The notes under the pieces: model-generated | Database searches by the model: none | Seen by the model: only the letters and a program-made list of their open reading frames with translations | Told to the model about the DNA's origin: nothing | Translations under genes and position numbers: made by a program | Part shown: one piece after another, positions 34,778 to 39,500 of the stretch | Position numbering within the stretch: the first letter of the stretch is position 1 | How the letters are laid out: the number at the start of each line of letters is the position of its first letter | From: Lysobacteraceae bacterium | Lineage (GTDB): Bacteria > Pseudomonadota > Gammaproteobacteria > Nitrococcales > AK92 | Direction of reading: 5' to 3' | Assembly: GCA_012523465.1 (NCBI GenBank) | Contig: JAAYIK010000028.1 | Location: 62,001-126,000, forward strand | Length of the DNA stretch: 64,000 nt

Positions 34778-36058
34778 TTATCCCACCGCCGATGGCTTGG
34801 CTGCGGTCGCCTCCGCCACGGGATCCTCCTGCAGCCAAGGACGGAAACACGGCAGCAGCAGCAAGCCCGGAATGGCCAGCAGCGTGCACAAGGTGAAGAA
34901 CCAGGGCCAGCCCAGTCCCTGGGCCAAATAGCCGGTCGGCGCTGCCAGTACGGTGCGTGAGACAGCCATCAGGCTGGACAGCAAGGCATACTGGGTAGCG
35001 GTGAACTTCTTATTGGTGAGGCTGGCAATGAAGGCGACAAAGGCTGCTGTGCCCATGCCGGCGGTCAGGTTCTCGAAGCCCACCACCATGCCCAGCACGC
35101 GCAAGTCGGCCCCTACCTGGGCCAGCAACACGAAGCCGGCGGTCGAAACCGCCTGCAGCACGCCGAATCCCAGCAGGCTGCCGTAGATTCCGTAACGCAG
35201 AATGAGCGCGCCACCGAGCAGGCTACCGGCTACCGTAGCCCAGAAGCCGAACAACTTGACGACCGCACCGATCTGGCCGGTAGAAAAGCCCAACGCCAGA
35301 TAAAACGGCGTGGTCATGTGGCTGGCCATGGTATCGCCGATCTTGTAGAGCACGATGAACAGCAGGACGAGCAACGCATGCTCACGGCGAAAGTACTCGA
35401 CGAAAGGCTCGATCACCGCTTCGCGCAAACTCTGCGGCCGACCGTCGGCCACCGGCGGCTCGGGCGCTGCCAGCGTCACCACGGTACTGGCCGCAGCCGT
35501 CGCCGCCATCAGCGCATAAACCCAGCGGAAGGAGATTACGTCCGCCAGCATCAGCCCGCCGGCGGATGCCGCCAGCATGCCGAGGCGATAGCCGTTGACG
35601 TACAGTGATGCCCCCAGCCCCTGCTCGTCGTCGGCCAGGGACTCGCGGCGGTAAGCGTCGATGACGATGTCCTGGGAGGCGGAGAAAAAACTCGCCAGCA
35701 ACGCCAGCAACGCCAGCAGCGAGGTTTGCCGGGCCGGCTCCAGCAGGCTGAGCCCCAGGATGCTGGCCGCCAACGCCAGCTGGAACAGCAGCAGCCAGCC
35801 GCGCCGCCGCCCTAGCCGCAACGGCGTGTAGCGATCCAGCAACGGCGCCCATAAAAACTTCAACGCGTAGGGAATGCCGACCAGGCCGAACAGACCGATG
35901 GTCTCTAGCTCCACGCCTTCCAGGGTCATCCAGGCCTGCAGCACCGACCCGGTCAGCAGCAGCGGCATTCCCGCGATGATTCCCATCAGGAGGGCGATCA
36001 GCATCCGGCCGCTGAAGATGACCGGCAGCAGTTGGGAAAGGGGACGCGGCTTGCTCAT
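34778..36058 (-). CDS. ampG: AmpG-like muropeptide MFS permease
   Basis: Inner membrane transporter of 426 residues with 12 or more helices. LQAWMTLEGVELETIGLFGL, LKFLWAPLLDRYTPLRLGRR and ASQDIVIDAYRRE are typical of AmpG, which imports anhydro-muropeptides for cell wall recycling. ATG 36058 (MSKPRPLSQLL) has AAGG 5 bases upstream. Two further in-frame starts, ATG 36094 and TTG 36112, lack one. I see no ampD or beta-lactamase regulator nearby. Confidence 0.88.
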   Translation of the reverse strand: MSKPRPLSQLLPVIFSGRMLIALLMGIIAGMPLLLTGSVLQAWMTLEGVELETIGLFGLVGIPYALKFLWAPLLDRYTPLRLGRRRGWLLLFQLALAASILGLSLLEPARQTSLLALLALLASFFSASQDIVIDAYRRESLADDEQGLGASLYVNGYRLGMLAASAGGLMLADVISFRWVYALMAATAAASTVVTLAAPEPPVADGRPQSLREAVIEPFVEYFRREHALLVLLFIVLYKIGDTMASHMTTPFYLALGFSTGQIGAVVKLFGFWATVAGSLLGGALILRYGIYGSLLGFGVLQAVSTAGFVLLAQVGADLRVLGMVVGFENLTAGMGTAAFVAFIASLTNKKFTATQYALLSSLMAVSRTVLAAPTGYLAQGLGWPWFFTLCTLLAIPGLLLLPCFRPWLQEDPVAEATAAKPSAVG

Positions 36059-36225
36059 GGTTGCCTTGTTTTTAGCGTTGGGATGCGCTTCCATGGTGAT
36101 AGTCTCGGGCAAGCGCCCGCAAGCCCGTCATGCCGATCCCCGCGACTCGGTCTCAGCCTGACTGCGGCAGGTTTCACCGTTTGCGGTCTCGGCCAGCCGC
36201 GGCCAGGGCGGATGAGGTTGCCTGC

Positions 36226-36558
36226 ATGCAAATTCTTTGTCCCTTCGATGAGCTGCCGGAAAACGGCGCCAAAGGCTTTCGGATTTCTGCGCAAAGCCTG
36301 GCCGCTGACATCCTGGTGGCACGGCGCGACGGCCGGATCTACGGCTATCGCAACGTTTGCCCGCACCGCCACACCACCCTCGACTGGCTGCCGGACCAGT
36401 TCATGGACCCCAGTGGCGAATACCTGCAGTGCGCCACCCACGGCGCCCTGTTCCGGCTTGAGGACGGCCTCTGCATCGCTGGGCCCTGCAAGGGTCAACG
36501 CCTGACCCCGGTCACCGTGGCGGTGCATGATGACATGGTCGTGCTGCTGTCTGAATAG
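36226..36558 (+). CDS. Rieske [2Fe-2S] ferredoxin-like protein
   Basis: Small soluble Rieske protein of 110 residues. The cluster ligands are Cys45-x-His47 (CPHRHT) and Cys69-x2-His72 (CATHGALF). FDELPENGAKGFRI and GLCIAGPCKGQRLTPVTV frame the domain, as in the NirD/ferredoxin subunits of Rieske proteins. No oxygenase or reductase partner is nearby. ATG 36226 follows GAGG by 8 bases. It is divergent from ampG. Confidence 0.9.
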   Translation: MQILCPFDELPENGAKGFRISAQSLAADILVARRDGRIYGYRNVCPHRHTTLDWLPDQFMDPSGEYLQCATHGALFRLEDGLCIAGPCKGQRLTPVTVAVHDDMVVLLSE

Positions 36559-36576
36559 TCACCAAGCTGTCACAAA

Positions 36577-36606
36577 CTGACGTCTTGCGTCACTCGCCTT
36601 TATACT
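36577..36606 (+). promoter_or_regulatory. Predicted sigma-70 promoter for the Sel1-repeat gene
   Basis: CTGACG (36577-36582, 4 of 6 to TTGACA) and TATACT (36601-36606, 5 of 6 to TATAAT) are 18 bases apart. Transcription would start near 36613, some 90 bases before the Sel1 gene and just before a 24-base palindrome. Confidence 0.45.
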
Positions 36607-36620
36607 TGCCCGCTCGCAAA

Positions 36621-36644
36621 CACTGTTGCCAATTGGCGACAGTG
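36621..36644. repeat. 24-base near-perfect palindrome
   Basis: CACTGTTGCCAA followed by TTGGCGACAGTG: the two 12-base arms are reverse complements except for one T/G pair. It lies about 15-38 bases after a predicted -10 box, a position suited to an operator or to a 5' leader hairpin. No run of T follows, so it is unlikely to be a terminator for the Rieske gene. Confidence 0.75.
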
Positions 36645-36703
36645 GTTGGCCCGCTTCCTGCAATGCACCCGTAAACGCACAACCGCGTCTTGGGACAAAC
36701 AAC

Positions 36704-37117
36704 ATGAAGAACGACATGGAATCCGCTTGGGCCGATTACCGTCTGGGCCAAATGAAAGAGTGGGGCGAAGGCCAGCCACCCGATCCGGCGGCCGCGGCCC
36801 GGCTTTACCGTCGCGCCGCCATGCGTGGCCTGGCCGAAGCCCAGCAGGCACTGGCCTTCCTCTACGCCACGGGTCAGGGTGTGCCGCTCAACGAGGCGAT
36901 GGCGGCTGCCTGGTTCCGCCGGGCCGCCGAGCAAGGACTGGCCGTCGCCCAGCACAACCTGGCAGTCATGTATGTGGAGGGGCGCGGAGTAGAAAAGGAC
37001 GAGCGCCAAGCCCTGTACTGGTTCTACCGCGCCGCCACCAGCGGCAGCAACGTTTCCCGCCAGTGGCTGTCCATGGCGCGCGAGCGATGGCGCGACTACC
37101 TCTCCGCCGATCTTTGA
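36704..37117 (+). CDS. Sel1-repeat protein
   Basis: Soluble helical-repeat protein of 137 residues with three Sel1-like repeats. They start near ADYRLGQMKEWGEGQPPDPA, AAMRGLAEAQQALAFLYATG and AAEQGLAVAQHNLAVMYVEG, each with the G-x-x-x-A-x-x-x-L pattern. No signal peptide is seen. Such proteins act as protein-protein scaffolds; the partner is unknown. ATG 36704 (MKNDMESAW) is used because the upstream frame lacks a ribosome binding site. Confidence 0.85.
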   Translation: MKNDMESAWADYRLGQMKEWGEGQPPDPAAAARLYRRAAMRGLAEAQQALAFLYATGQGVPLNEAMAAAWFRRAAEQGLAVAQHNLAVMYVEGRGVEKDERQALYWFYRAATSGSNVSRQWLSMARERWRDYLSADL

Positions 37118-37124
37118 ACCGCCA

Positions 37125-37145
37125 GCCGGCCGGCTTCCGGCCGGC
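37125..37145 (+). terminator. GC-rich stem-loop after the Sel1 gene
   Basis: GCCGGCCGG (37125-37133) pairs with CCGGCCGGC (37137-37145) around the loop CTT, 8 bases after the Sel1 stop codon. CTCTCCCC follows but there is no T run, so termination would be weak or factor-dependent. Confidence 0.5.
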
Positions 37146-37175
37146 CCTCTCCCCAGTATCGCAAAGCTTGCGCTG

Positions 37176-37203
37176 TTGCCAGCTTTGGCGACGGCTCTAT
37201 GCT
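37176..37203 (+). promoter_or_regulatory. Predicted promoter of the membrane-anchored receiver gene
   Basis: TTGCCA (37176-37181, 5 of 6 to consensus) and TATGCT (37198-37203, 4 of 6) are 16 bases apart. This implies a leader of about 120 bases before 37330 that contains a 7-pair hairpin, GACGCCT-CAGC-AGGCGTC (37265-37282). Confidence 0.45.
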
Positions 37204-37329
37204 AGTCTTCGCTGAGAGAACGGCAAAACCATCGGATTTACGCCGGCTTGCACGTTCTTCCGAAGACGCCTCAGCAGGCGTCGGTCGCATCCCTGGTTCG
37301 ACAACAAAATAACCCTGCAGAGGTCGGGT

Positions 37330-38445
37330 ATGGCGCAACCAATCAAGACGGCGCTCATCGTCGACGACTCGCGGCTCGCCCGCGTCGCACTTTCCAAGTT
37401 GTTGGCCAACCGTGGCATTAAGGTCGACATGGTTGGCTGCGGCGAGGAGGGGCTGGAGCATCTGCGGCGCCATCAACCGGACATCGTCTTCATGGACTAC
37501 ATGATGCCGGACATGGACGGCTTCGAGGCCTCTCGCCGCGTGCTGGCGGACCCTACCTGCCACAAGCCGCCCATCGTCATGTACACCTCGCAAGACACCG
37601 AAGAAGACCGCCTCAAGGCGGCCGAAATCGGCATCTCCGGCTTTCTCAGCAAGCCCACCACGCTGAGCGCGCTGGACGAGGTGCTGCAGGCGGTGGCCTC
37701 CGGAAAAATGCGGCCTGGTGCGTCCGCCGCCGCGCCGACGCCAACCACAACCTCTGCCCCGACGGCCGCGGCGGCGAAAGCGCCCGCTGCCGACCCCACC
37801 GCGCCGCTCGACCTGCAAGCTGTGGAAGAAGCAGCCCGGGTGGCAGCACGCGACCAAAGCGAGTACGTGGCGTTGCACTACTTCGAGCAGCTGCGGGACG
37901 AGCTGCAGTCTTCCCTGCAGCAGGTTCGCAATGAACTGGGCGCAATCGCGCAGCAAGTGCAAGGCGTGGAAACCGCCCTCGCCCAGCTTCCGGAGCCGCA
38001 ACGAATCGACCTGGAGGAGCTGGAAGTCCGTCTGGGCAAACTGGCCGAGGAACGGGCCGAGTCCATCGCCGGCGGCGTCGCCCGATCCGCGGCCGCGGCC
38101 GCGGCCCGTGCCCAAGCACCGCAGCTGATTGCCGACGCCAGGCAGGCCGCCATCGACGCCGTCGAGCTCGCCAATCTGCCCGGCCGGCTGCAGACGCTGG
38201 TGGACGAGGCCTTGCCGCGCCTGCGTCGCGAGCTGCAGACCCTGATGCAACAGGATTTGCAGGCCGCCTTGACTGCCGCCCTGGACGAGCGCGCCGAGCG
38301 GCTGGAGTCGCGCCTGCTGGAAGCGGCCGAGCACGCCGCCAGCGCCGAGCTGCGGGCCCGCAGCGGCAGCCTACTGCTGAAGGCCGCACTAGCCGGCATC
38401 GTTGCCGGCACGGTCACGGCCCTGGTCATCGCGCTGCTGCTGTAG
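37330..38445 (+). CDS. Receiver domain fused to a coiled coil and a C-terminal membrane anchor
   Basis: A 371-residue protein with an unusual layout. Residues 1-125 form a CheY-like receiver with Asp12, Asp13, Asp56 (IVFMDYMMPDMDGFEA), Thr86 and Lys108 all present, so it should be phosphorylated. An Ala/Pro/Thr linker (128-155) leads to a long helical, Gln/Glu/Ala-rich coiled coil (about 160-340). A single C-terminal membrane helix (about 348-371, AALAGIVAGTVTALVIALLL) ends the protein. No kinase is adjacent; ChpA is a possible donor, which is speculation. Its end overlaps nfi by 20 bases. Confidence 0.85.
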   Translation: MAQPIKTALIVDDSRLARVALSKLLANRGIKVDMVGCGEEGLEHLRRHQPDIVFMDYMMPDMDGFEASRRVLADPTCHKPPIVMYTSQDTEEDRLKAAEIGISGFLSKPTTLSALDEVLQAVASGKMRPGASAAAPTPTTTSAPTAAAAKAPAADPTAPLDLQAVEEAARVAARDQSEYVALHYFEQLRDELQSSLQQVRNELGAIAQQVQGVETALAQLPEPQRIDLEELEVRLGKLAEERAESIAGGVARSAAAAAARAQAPQLIADARQAAIDAVELANLPGRLQTLVDEALPRLRRELQTLMQQDLQAALTAALDERAERLESRLLEAAEHAASAELRARSGSLLLKAALAGIVAGTVTALVIALLL

Positions 38446-39106
38446 CGCGGCTGGAAGCCAGCCGATCCGCCATGCGAATCGGCTCCGGCAACCGGTAACG
38501 GGTCAGGCAGCGCAGCACCCAGTCGACCGCATCCTCATGGCTGACCAAATGCCCTGGCGAGACGAACAACGGTCGCACCCCGGTGCGACTGCGCAGCACA
38601 GTGCCGATGCGCTCTTCGCCGTCTAGCAGCGGCGACTGCGAGCCTTTCTCCGGCCCCGGCTCCTGGTAGTGGCCGGTAAGTCGCGACTTGCCGACCCCGA
38701 TGCTGGGGATGCCGGTATACAGCCCAAGATGAGTGGCGATGCCCAGGCGGCGGGGATGGGCGATGCCCTGGCCATCGCATAGCAAGAGATCCGGCCGCTG
38801 CCGCAGCCCCTGCATTGCCTTGAGGACAGCCGGGATTTCGCGGAACGAAAGCAGCCCCGGCACGTACGGGAAGCGCACCGGCTCCAGCGCCACCGCGTGC
38901 TCCACCAGCTCCAGCCGCGGATAGCGATAGAGCGCGATCACGGCGCGGGCGGTCACGCCACGATCGATGAAGCCGGTATCGACACCGGCAATCAGCCTGA
39001 TCTCGCCTCGCAACGGCGCCAGCCGGATCTGTTCCCGCAAGCGTCGCTGGATGGCTACTGCTTCAGCGGCGCTCACATCCCAGTCATGCTGAACGGAGCG
39101 CGCCAT
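38426..39106 (-). CDS. nfi: Endonuclease V
   Basis: Repair nuclease of 226 residues that cleaves near deoxyinosine. The metal ligands Asp43 (AGVDTGF), Glu90 (LLSFREIPAV) and Asp111 (LLLCDGQGIAHPRRLG) correspond to Asp35, Glu89 and Asp110 of E. coli Nfi. The strand-separating PYVPGLLS motif and IGVGKSRLTG are present. It starts 3 bases after the stop of the DUF6763 gene and converges on the receiver gene. Confidence 0.95.
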   Translation of the reverse strand: MARSVQHDWDVSAAEAVAIQRRLREQIRLAPLRGEIRLIAGVDTGFIDRGVTARAVIALYRYPRLELVEHAVALEPVRFPYVPGLLSFREIPAVLKAMQGLRQRPDLLLCDGQGIAHPRRLGIATHLGLYTGIPSIGVGKSRLTGHYQEPGPEKGSQSPLLDGEERIGTVLRSRTGVRPLFVSPGHLVSHEDAVDWVLRCLTRYRLPEPIRMADRLASSRATAAAR

Positions 39107-39109
39107 TGC

Positions 39110-39409
39110 TCAGCCAAGCCCATCCACGTCGTTCAGGTAATCGTAGCCTTCTCGCATGTGCGCCAGCGTGTAGTCTTCCAGATCCTGCAAGTCTTCCGGA
39201 GCCAGATCCAGCGGCCCGCTCCAGTCTTCCGGCGGAGGCGACGGCAGCGCCGCCAGCATGAACCAGCTTTCCAGATCGAGAGCTTCGACGCTGCCGTCGG
39301 CATACTGGATCTCGATGTCGCCGTCGTCCAGGTCGATGGCGACGACTTCGAACACATCGCCTTCCGGGGTTCTGTACCATTCGCCGATAATCGGCCGATA
39401 ACGCGCCAT
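39110..39409 (-). CDS. DUF6763-like conserved protein
   Basis: Small acidic soluble protein of 99 residues: an N-terminal beta-rich part (IIGEWYRTPEGDVFEVVAID, then DIEIQYADGSVEALDLESW) and an acidic C-terminal helix (EDLQDLEDYTLAHMREGYDY). It matches my recollection of the gammaproteobacterial DUF6763 family; function unknown. It is tightly coupled to nfi. Confidence 0.8.
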   Translation of the reverse strand: MARYRPIIGEWYRTPEGDVFEVVAIDLDDGDIEIQYADGSVEALDLESWFMLAALPSPPPEDWSGPLDLAPEDLQDLEDYTLAHMREGYDYLNDVDGLG

Positions 39410-39500
39410 AGCACTCCCCCTCTCAACGCGTGCGGACGCTCGCGCCCGCCTCCCTCCAGGTATGGGGCCGCCGGCAACCAGGGCAAGCGCGGCGGGCGTT

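Follow-up and report, generated by a model that had tools for sequence, protein, structure and literature searches.

A receiver protein with a predicted C-terminal membrane anchor, found across Gammaproteobacteria and paired in one branch with a Sel1-repeat gene

How could a receiver domain act when the protein that carries it has neither a DNA-binding nor an enzymatic output? The question is raised by a gene at 37330..38445 (+) in a stretch of 64,000 nucleotides, here called the window, from a Lysobacteraceae bacterium placed in the order Nitrococcales (assembly GCA_012523465.1, contig JAAYIK010000028.1, positions 62,001 to 126,000). The gene starts with ATG, has relatives in several genome searches and encodes 371 residues, in which an earlier note, made from the letters of this DNA, had seen an intact receiver followed by about 180 residues of coiled coil and a single C-terminal membrane helix, and had proposed that it could place a phospho-signal at the membrane or cell pole, for example for pilus or chemotaxis parts. 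What our sequence comparison establishes is the predicted architecture, its conservation, and a tight genomic coupling to the gene of a small Sel1-repeat protein encoded just upstream, and this gene is the best lead to function, its product being probably the partner of the receiver.

The receiver domain takes up residues 1-123 (37330..37698, +), where the predicted model has a predicted local distance difference test score (pLDDT) of ~89-98 as block means. Response_reg (PF00072) is the sole Pfam match over its cut-off in the protein, at residues 9-119 with an E value of 2.2e-26 and 92.7 bits against a cut-off of 30.2. All the phosphorylation residues, D12, D13, D56, T86 and K108, are present, with the phosphoacceptor codon D56 at 37495-37497 (+), and the receiver is thus intact, as had been claimed. 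Among 43 non-redundant tail-anchored relatives D12, D13 and K108 are invariant, position 86 is T or S in every one, and D56 is retained in 41. The change from Asp to Gly at the phosphoacceptor was seen in the tail-anchored receivers L047/L073 of genome G002 and L069 of genome G014.

Behind the receiver come a Pro/Ala/Thr-rich linker of residues 124-161 (37699..37812, +), with low pLDDT at 137-153 and different lengths in the relatives, then a predicted helical stalk of residues 162-345 (37813..38364, +), and finally a putative membrane helix of residues 348-370 (38371..38439, +), for which hydropathy, the model and conservation in relatives speak together. Hydropathy averaged over 19 residues is highest (2.49) from residue 353 to the last residue, and no N-terminal signal sequence is evident in the 371-residue protein, so that by prediction it has the two marks of a tail anchor, a single helix less than about 30 residues from the C-terminus and no signal sequence. 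In the ten residues preceding the helix the net charge is positive in 40 of the 43 relatives, zero in 3 and negative in none; as these relatives were chosen for their C-terminal helix, the charge alone is an independent test among the evidence for the anchor. Because the arrangement recurs in divergent relatives and is accompanied by this charge bias, it appears to go beyond chance. A tail-anchored inner-membrane form with a cytoplasmic receiver is therefore well supported as a prediction, and the single C-terminal membrane helix of the earlier note holds on the same terms. We infer an N-in topology, with the N-terminus in the cytoplasm, which agrees with the positive charge before the helix.

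The stalk is another matter. The model builds it from helices at 162-218, 222-261, 263-278 and 283-345 (pLDDT ~51-79, block means), followed by the C-terminal helix at 348-370 (~58-66), and the ~184 residues of predicted helix bear out the length that had been given for a coiled coil. The heptad period does not follow: the window protein has its main hydrophobic period at 3.92 (shuffle p 0.005) and a weaker component at 3.5, against a peak of 3.50 in PilJ, a heptad control from the same window. Across the 43 tail-anchored relatives the period is 3.90-4.10 in 27, 3.70-3.89 in 11, below 3.7 in 4 and 4.13 in 1, and a dominant peak at 3.5 is found in 2. The stalk thus does not look like a plain heptad coiled coil, and "coiled coil" is partly right but too strong a term. 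In L129, L124, L013 and others, hydrophobicity repeats almost exactly every four residues, unlike heptad or hendecad coiled coils; the visible cause of the period of four is Ala-rich hydrophobic pairs spaced four residues apart. Searches for another identity of the stalk returned five weak Pfam matches, all under cut-off; the NCBIfam matches listed (25 of 98) and the best 60 of 154 matches in the PDB sequence search (1e-10) are receiver-type, and the 50 rows listed by Foldseek against the PDB all align to receiver domains. Against a viral library the best Foldseek rows are receivers or kinases, and those that come after them are weak and mixed. No plasmid record reaches 80% coverage of the query; the 10 matches listed of 4162 cover the receiver part alone, and the one inspected is a CheB region from which nothing further was learned.

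The earlier note had also suggested a search for proteins of the same architecture and their co-occurring kinases, and a wider family was indeed found. Nine clear relatives (L009-L017) emerged from a scan of genomes and include those of Nitrococcus mobilis Nb-231, Arhodomonas aquaeolei DSM 8974 and Alkalilimnicola ehrlichii AK92. In the last of these (L017:6001-7103) the frame breaks near codon 30, with the remainder, anchor included, open in another frame; the break is either real or an assembly error. A profile search of 54 genomes of the window's order gave 28 rows of at least 206.9 bits in 27 genomes, the next best match being at 129.6 bits, and with a gene fragment at a contig end in G017 the receiver-positive total comes to 28 of 54; several of these genomes are the same assemblies as loci of the nine-relative scan, so the two scans are not independent. 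The receiver gene was not found in the other 26 genomes of the order, which make up family f3 (12) and genus g15 (14). All but one of the 28 rows end in a hydrophobic helix whose peak window is followed by 0-8 residues, and the remaining one (L066, genome G052) is truncated by a contig end.

Across the class, a search of 369 genomes at E <=1e-36 gave 46 matches in 41 genomes: 25 tail-anchored, 19 with a membrane helix in mid-protein, 1 fusion of a receiver to RadC (REC-RadC) and 1 without a membrane helix, this last (L156) lying close to a contig end. The profile included the tail and so favours tail-anchored proteins, at most five candidates were scored per genome, and genomes counted below as without a receiver match have none at E 1e-36. 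Some genomes carry a second tail-anchored receiver elsewhere (L091:6393-7589 in G031, L154 in G121, L217 in G251), and G251:C61 is tail-anchored. In the mid-helix proteins one membrane helix, from about residue 204-252, is followed by ~200-230 residues in which C356 and C377 are invariant in an alignment of 11 members; residues 301-458 are modelled as an alpha/beta domain (pLDDT ~82-96), and no Pfam family passed its cut-off over this domain in the four members scanned. The cysteine pair would fit a periplasmic place of this part in the sister group. Examples of the mid-helix kind are L146:1154-2527, L139:6311-7630 and L140:5592-7022, and, in the window's order, L153 (G053) and L157 (G052). 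The receiver of L134:6912-8114 is fused to a RadC-like JAB domain, and its gene adjoins that of a tail-anchored receiver (L134:8135-8971) in a genome of 1.5 Mb.

In a tree of 104 receivers the tail-anchored, mid-helix and REC-RadC proteins, the window receiver among them, form one group (support 100/98) separate from both PilH and PilG; the mid-helix kind is a clade nested among the tail-anchored ones (99/89). PilG stands apart, and PilH-like receivers come nearest by a weak join (95/63). The receiver clade is in part an effect of the choice of rows, which favoured receivers resembling the query, and the alignment had few columns. Near-copies more than 93% identical, six long-branch receivers of the window's own genome and one unassignable pilus receiver were left out, as were 14 of the 18 rows of class OTHER, including the contig-end piece L012 and L156.

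The coupling that gives the best lead to function concerns a gene at 36704..37117 (+), whose product of 137 residues has three stretches matching PF08238 and aligns with its relatives; Sel1 repeats are TPR-like, that is, they resemble tetratricopeptide repeats (TPR). The start taken here is the ATG that aligns with the relatives; the list of open reading frames (ORFs) has a TTG at 36626, and PF08238 was scored on that longer frame. By eye, no N-terminal hydrophobic stretch is evident in the Sel1 protein. Within the order every one of the 28 receiver-positive genomes has an ortholog of this gene, at 153.9 bits or above, and none of the 26 receiver-negative ones does; a gap in score separates the orthologs from the next best match, at 105.8 bits. 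The Sel1 gene is less than 650 bp from the receiver gene in 12 genomes of the order and less than 6 kb away in 25 of the 26 that have both on one contig, G010 being the other with 13 kb; the two genes fall on separate contigs in G009 and G017. In family f108, outside the order, both genomes have the ortholog, at 200 and 168 bits. In G272 it immediately precedes the receiver gene, among different surrounding genes; in G156 it is on a contig other than the receiver's. No Sel1 match above 102 bits came up in any of the 18 further class genomes that have a tail-anchored receiver, or in any of 26 without a receiver match. Judged from these distributions, the pairing is a feature of one branch of the family.

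It could be argued that two neighbours in a conserved region simply come and go together, and that the receiver works in an unrelated envelope pathway, the co-occurrence with Sel1 reflecting no more than the shared loss of a dispensable neighbourhood. In favour of this, the entire region is syntenic. Most of the f2 loci mapped share the gene order Sel1, a TrkA_N channel, DUF6394, the receiver and endonuclease V, as do G053 and G003, and AmpG usually lies beyond Sel1. In the window, the endonuclease V gene (nfi; NF008629 over cut-off, and synteny) is at 38426..39106 (-) and overlaps the receiver gene by 20 bp, and the AmpG-type transporter gene (TIGR00901 over cut-off, and synteny) is the conserved neighbour on the other side, at 34778..36112 (-); endonuclease V is probably no part of the receiver system. 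The three of the 12 f3 genomes that were mapped (G020, G022 and G025) have AmpG, the channel, DUF6394 and endonuclease V in order, with Sel1 missing on the AmpG side and the receiver missing on the endonuclease side. From an f2-like order this absence would take two events and not one deletion, and the joint absence at two separate places with the flanks and intervening genes kept suggests that the neighbourhood alone does not explain the coupling. In a further f3 genome, G018, the channel, DUF6394 and endonuclease V are together and the receiver is absent. The case is less clean for g15, where endonuclease V is also absent, and AmpG kept, in 9 of 9 genomes tested, in keeping with a shared loss; against it stands f108, where Sel1 lies directly upstream of the receiver of G272 despite the other surrounding genes. 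Taking both sides together, we consider a shared loss unlikely.

Other observations on the neighbourhood can be added here. In L202, L203 and L204, from genomes that lack both receiver and Sel1, the TrkA_N channel and DUF6394 genes form a pair flanked by AmpG and endonuclease V. A DUF6763 protein (window 39110-39409, -) adjoins endonuclease V in several relatives; upstream of Sel1 lies a small Rieske protein (window 36130-36558, +) that two near relatives share. Rfam gave no RNA element at 36000-39500.

How the two proteins might work together is best approached from systems already described. Receivers with coiled-coil outputs are known, as is one archaeal set with a membrane-anchored output; in the open-licence literature we found described no bacterial tail-anchored receiver and no two-protein module of a receiver and a Sel1 protein. 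In the available passages on FrzS of Myxococcus xanthus, the protein is a receiver with a coiled coil, the receiver binds the 14-TPR protein SgmX, the critical phosphorylation residues are lacking, and the coiled coil suffices for polar localisation (PMC11580455; see also PMC4546325). The window protein is like FrzS, as these passages portray it, in having an N-terminal receiver, no DNA-binding or enzyme output and a long helical region after it. It is unlike FrzS in that its phosphosite is intact, so that the receiver without phosphorylation residues that is typical of FrzS is not what is seen here, and in its C-terminal helix anchor, the FrzS passages mentioning no membrane helix; its neighbour, moreover, is a small Sel1 protein, unlike SgmX. 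The binding of a TPR partner may have its counterpart here in the co-occurrence of the Sel1 gene. The likeness is thus a claim of working alike, drawn from descriptions, and no membership by sequence is claimed. AglZ, also of M. xanthus, has a receiver with an extended C-terminal coiled coil of 1076 residues, and so shares with the window protein the receiver and a long helical part; the passage on it mentions no tail anchor (PMC4546325). Archaeal response regulators with the membrane-anchored output domain MetOD3 likewise tie a receiver to the membrane (PMC5847659).

By analogy with FrzS and SgmX, it can be hypothesized that the receiver gives the Sel1 protein a membrane dock gated by phosphorylation, a reading that we favour but hold tentatively, as somewhat short of an even chance. 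From the predictions we infer the phosphorylation, the Sel1 binding and a downstream process in the following way. The receiver would sit at the cytoplasmic face of the inner membrane, fixed by the tail anchor with its C-terminus at or in the membrane, and a kinase acting in trans would phosphorylate D56. Once phosphorylated, or in some lineages by virtue of its membrane attachment alone, the receiver would then bind the small Sel1-repeat protein encoded adjacent to it, and the TPR-like adaptor and its cargo would thereby be brought to the membrane. The flexible linker and the long helical stalk would determine how far from the membrane the receiver stands and would probably permit self-association. 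Phosphorylation is probably the rule in the family, though perhaps dispensable, as in FrzS.

Several findings weigh against the dock. Since 18 other class genomes keep a tail-anchored receiver with no Sel1 ortholog, Sel1 cannot be the partner of the whole family, and within the order the coupling rests on two clades without the pair (f3 and g15), that is, on few independent events. The Sel1 and receiver genes do not look like one transcript, being separated by 212 bp that hold a promoter-like site as well as a perfect 9-bp inverted repeat rich in GC. The repeat, read from the sequence just after the Sel1 stop at 37125..37145 (no strand assigned), has no T run, and a terminator scan did not list it. 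The promoter-like hexamers, TTGCCA-16-TATGCT at 37176..37203 (+), come from a consensus scan that gave 3 such sites in 36500-38700 against 0.1 expected, a count that is not evidence of function, and mark a possible own promoter of the receiver gene. Model confidence is low for stalk and anchor. The phosphoacceptor is lost in 2 of the 43 relatives, one of them (G002) from the window's own genus. Finally, other receiver-bearing ORFs lie within about 14 kb in G010 (340 and 1042 residues), and one of 131 residues is ~3.5 kb off in G001, so that the gene does not stand apart from other signalling genes in every genome.

If phosphorylation were set aside, the receiver would serve as a protein-binding surface without a phospho-switch and the stalk would build a membrane-bound assembly, a scaffold in the manner of FrzS that overlaps with the dock in all else. 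The Gly in place of the phosphoacceptor in G002 and G014, where much of the remainder is kept, the long Ala-rich stalk of unusual period and the FrzS precedent all point this way, but the retention of D56 in 41/43 and of T/S86 and K108 in 43/43 argues for phosphorylation in most members, and we regard the scaffold as unlikely, if slightly the least so of the alternatives. Very improbable, to our mind, is that the C-terminal helix serves the oligomerisation of a soluble protein and anchors nothing. Its low pLDDT and its Ala/Gly-rich composition in several relatives would suit such a helix; the hydrophobic stretches of 19-30 residues near the ends of divergent proteins, with peak hydropathy of 1.76-3.13 and positive charge before them, do not, nor does a sister group with one mid-protein membrane helix and then a domain with two invariant cysteines.

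The identity of the kinase bears on the remaining alternative. No kinase gene was recognised directly beside the receiver in the neighbourhoods mapped, most neighbours there being without profile annotation, and the kinase acting on D56 is probably encoded elsewhere and works in trans. The window genome has a cluster ~28 kb from the receiver gene whose members, going by gene order, we take to be chpA, pilJ, pilH and pilG. The receiver might accordingly be a phosphate sink or a local CheY-like modulator of the pilus kinase ChpA, beside the receptor array at the membrane, with Sel1 incidental. Besides the nearby cluster, this idea draws on the PilH-like receivers being nearest in the tree and on the order itself, where ChpA (E <=1e-15) is found in 17 of 18 receiver-positive against 1 of 13 negative genomes; this cut-off was set after the search had been run at 1e-8, with 47 of 77 genomes positive at 1e-8 and 45 at 1e-15, some by matches in short frames. 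Outside the order the association is absent, with 13 of 20 positive genomes (14 of 20 counting a weak match in G272) against 14 of 26 others, and in the f73, f153 and f183 genomes tested the receiver is present and ChpA not detected. In G008, G032 and G037 at least several hundred kb separate the receiver gene from the chp cluster, and the PilH join is not strongly supported. PilH and PilG share the conserved active site, but are short and lack linker, stalk and anchor. Helix 1 of a receiver is the usual kinase-contact surface, and its commonest residues are S-[RK]-L-A-R in the tail-anchored receivers, S-P-T-E in PilH and S-K-T-I-R in PilG, which makes the surface unlike either. PilT, over its cut-off in 75 of 80 genomes, was rejected as a co-occurrence marker as near-universal, and ChpA is weakened as a general partner by the class-wide lack of association. 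The modulator thus seems improbable, about as much so as the shared loss, and the link between receiver and ChpA is seen inside the window's order alone. Of the role once proposed for this protein, the tethering of an intact receiver at the membrane is well supported by prediction, while a place at the pole, in pili or in chemotaxis is a mere possibility, and what support there is for pili or chemotaxis is confined to the order.

The history that we would propose, with less assurance than the dock itself and as one possibility, is that membrane-fixed receivers are an old gammaproteobacterial lineage in which the tail anchor is ancestral, that one branch came to carry the helix in mid-protein with an added C-terminal domain beyond it, and that in the branch of the window the receiver serves a dedicated Sel1-repeat adaptor as a membrane dock gated by phosphorylation. 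Response regulators have mostly been read as soluble switches. Widespread receivers with a stalk and a tail anchor as their sole visible output would mean that the site at which a phospho-signal is read, besides the target that it binds, is encoded in the protein itself. FrzS and SgmX do something similar for pili in Myxococcus, and the Sel1 neighbour may offer a way into how a receiver acts without a DNA-binding or enzyme output in bacteria unrelated to it.
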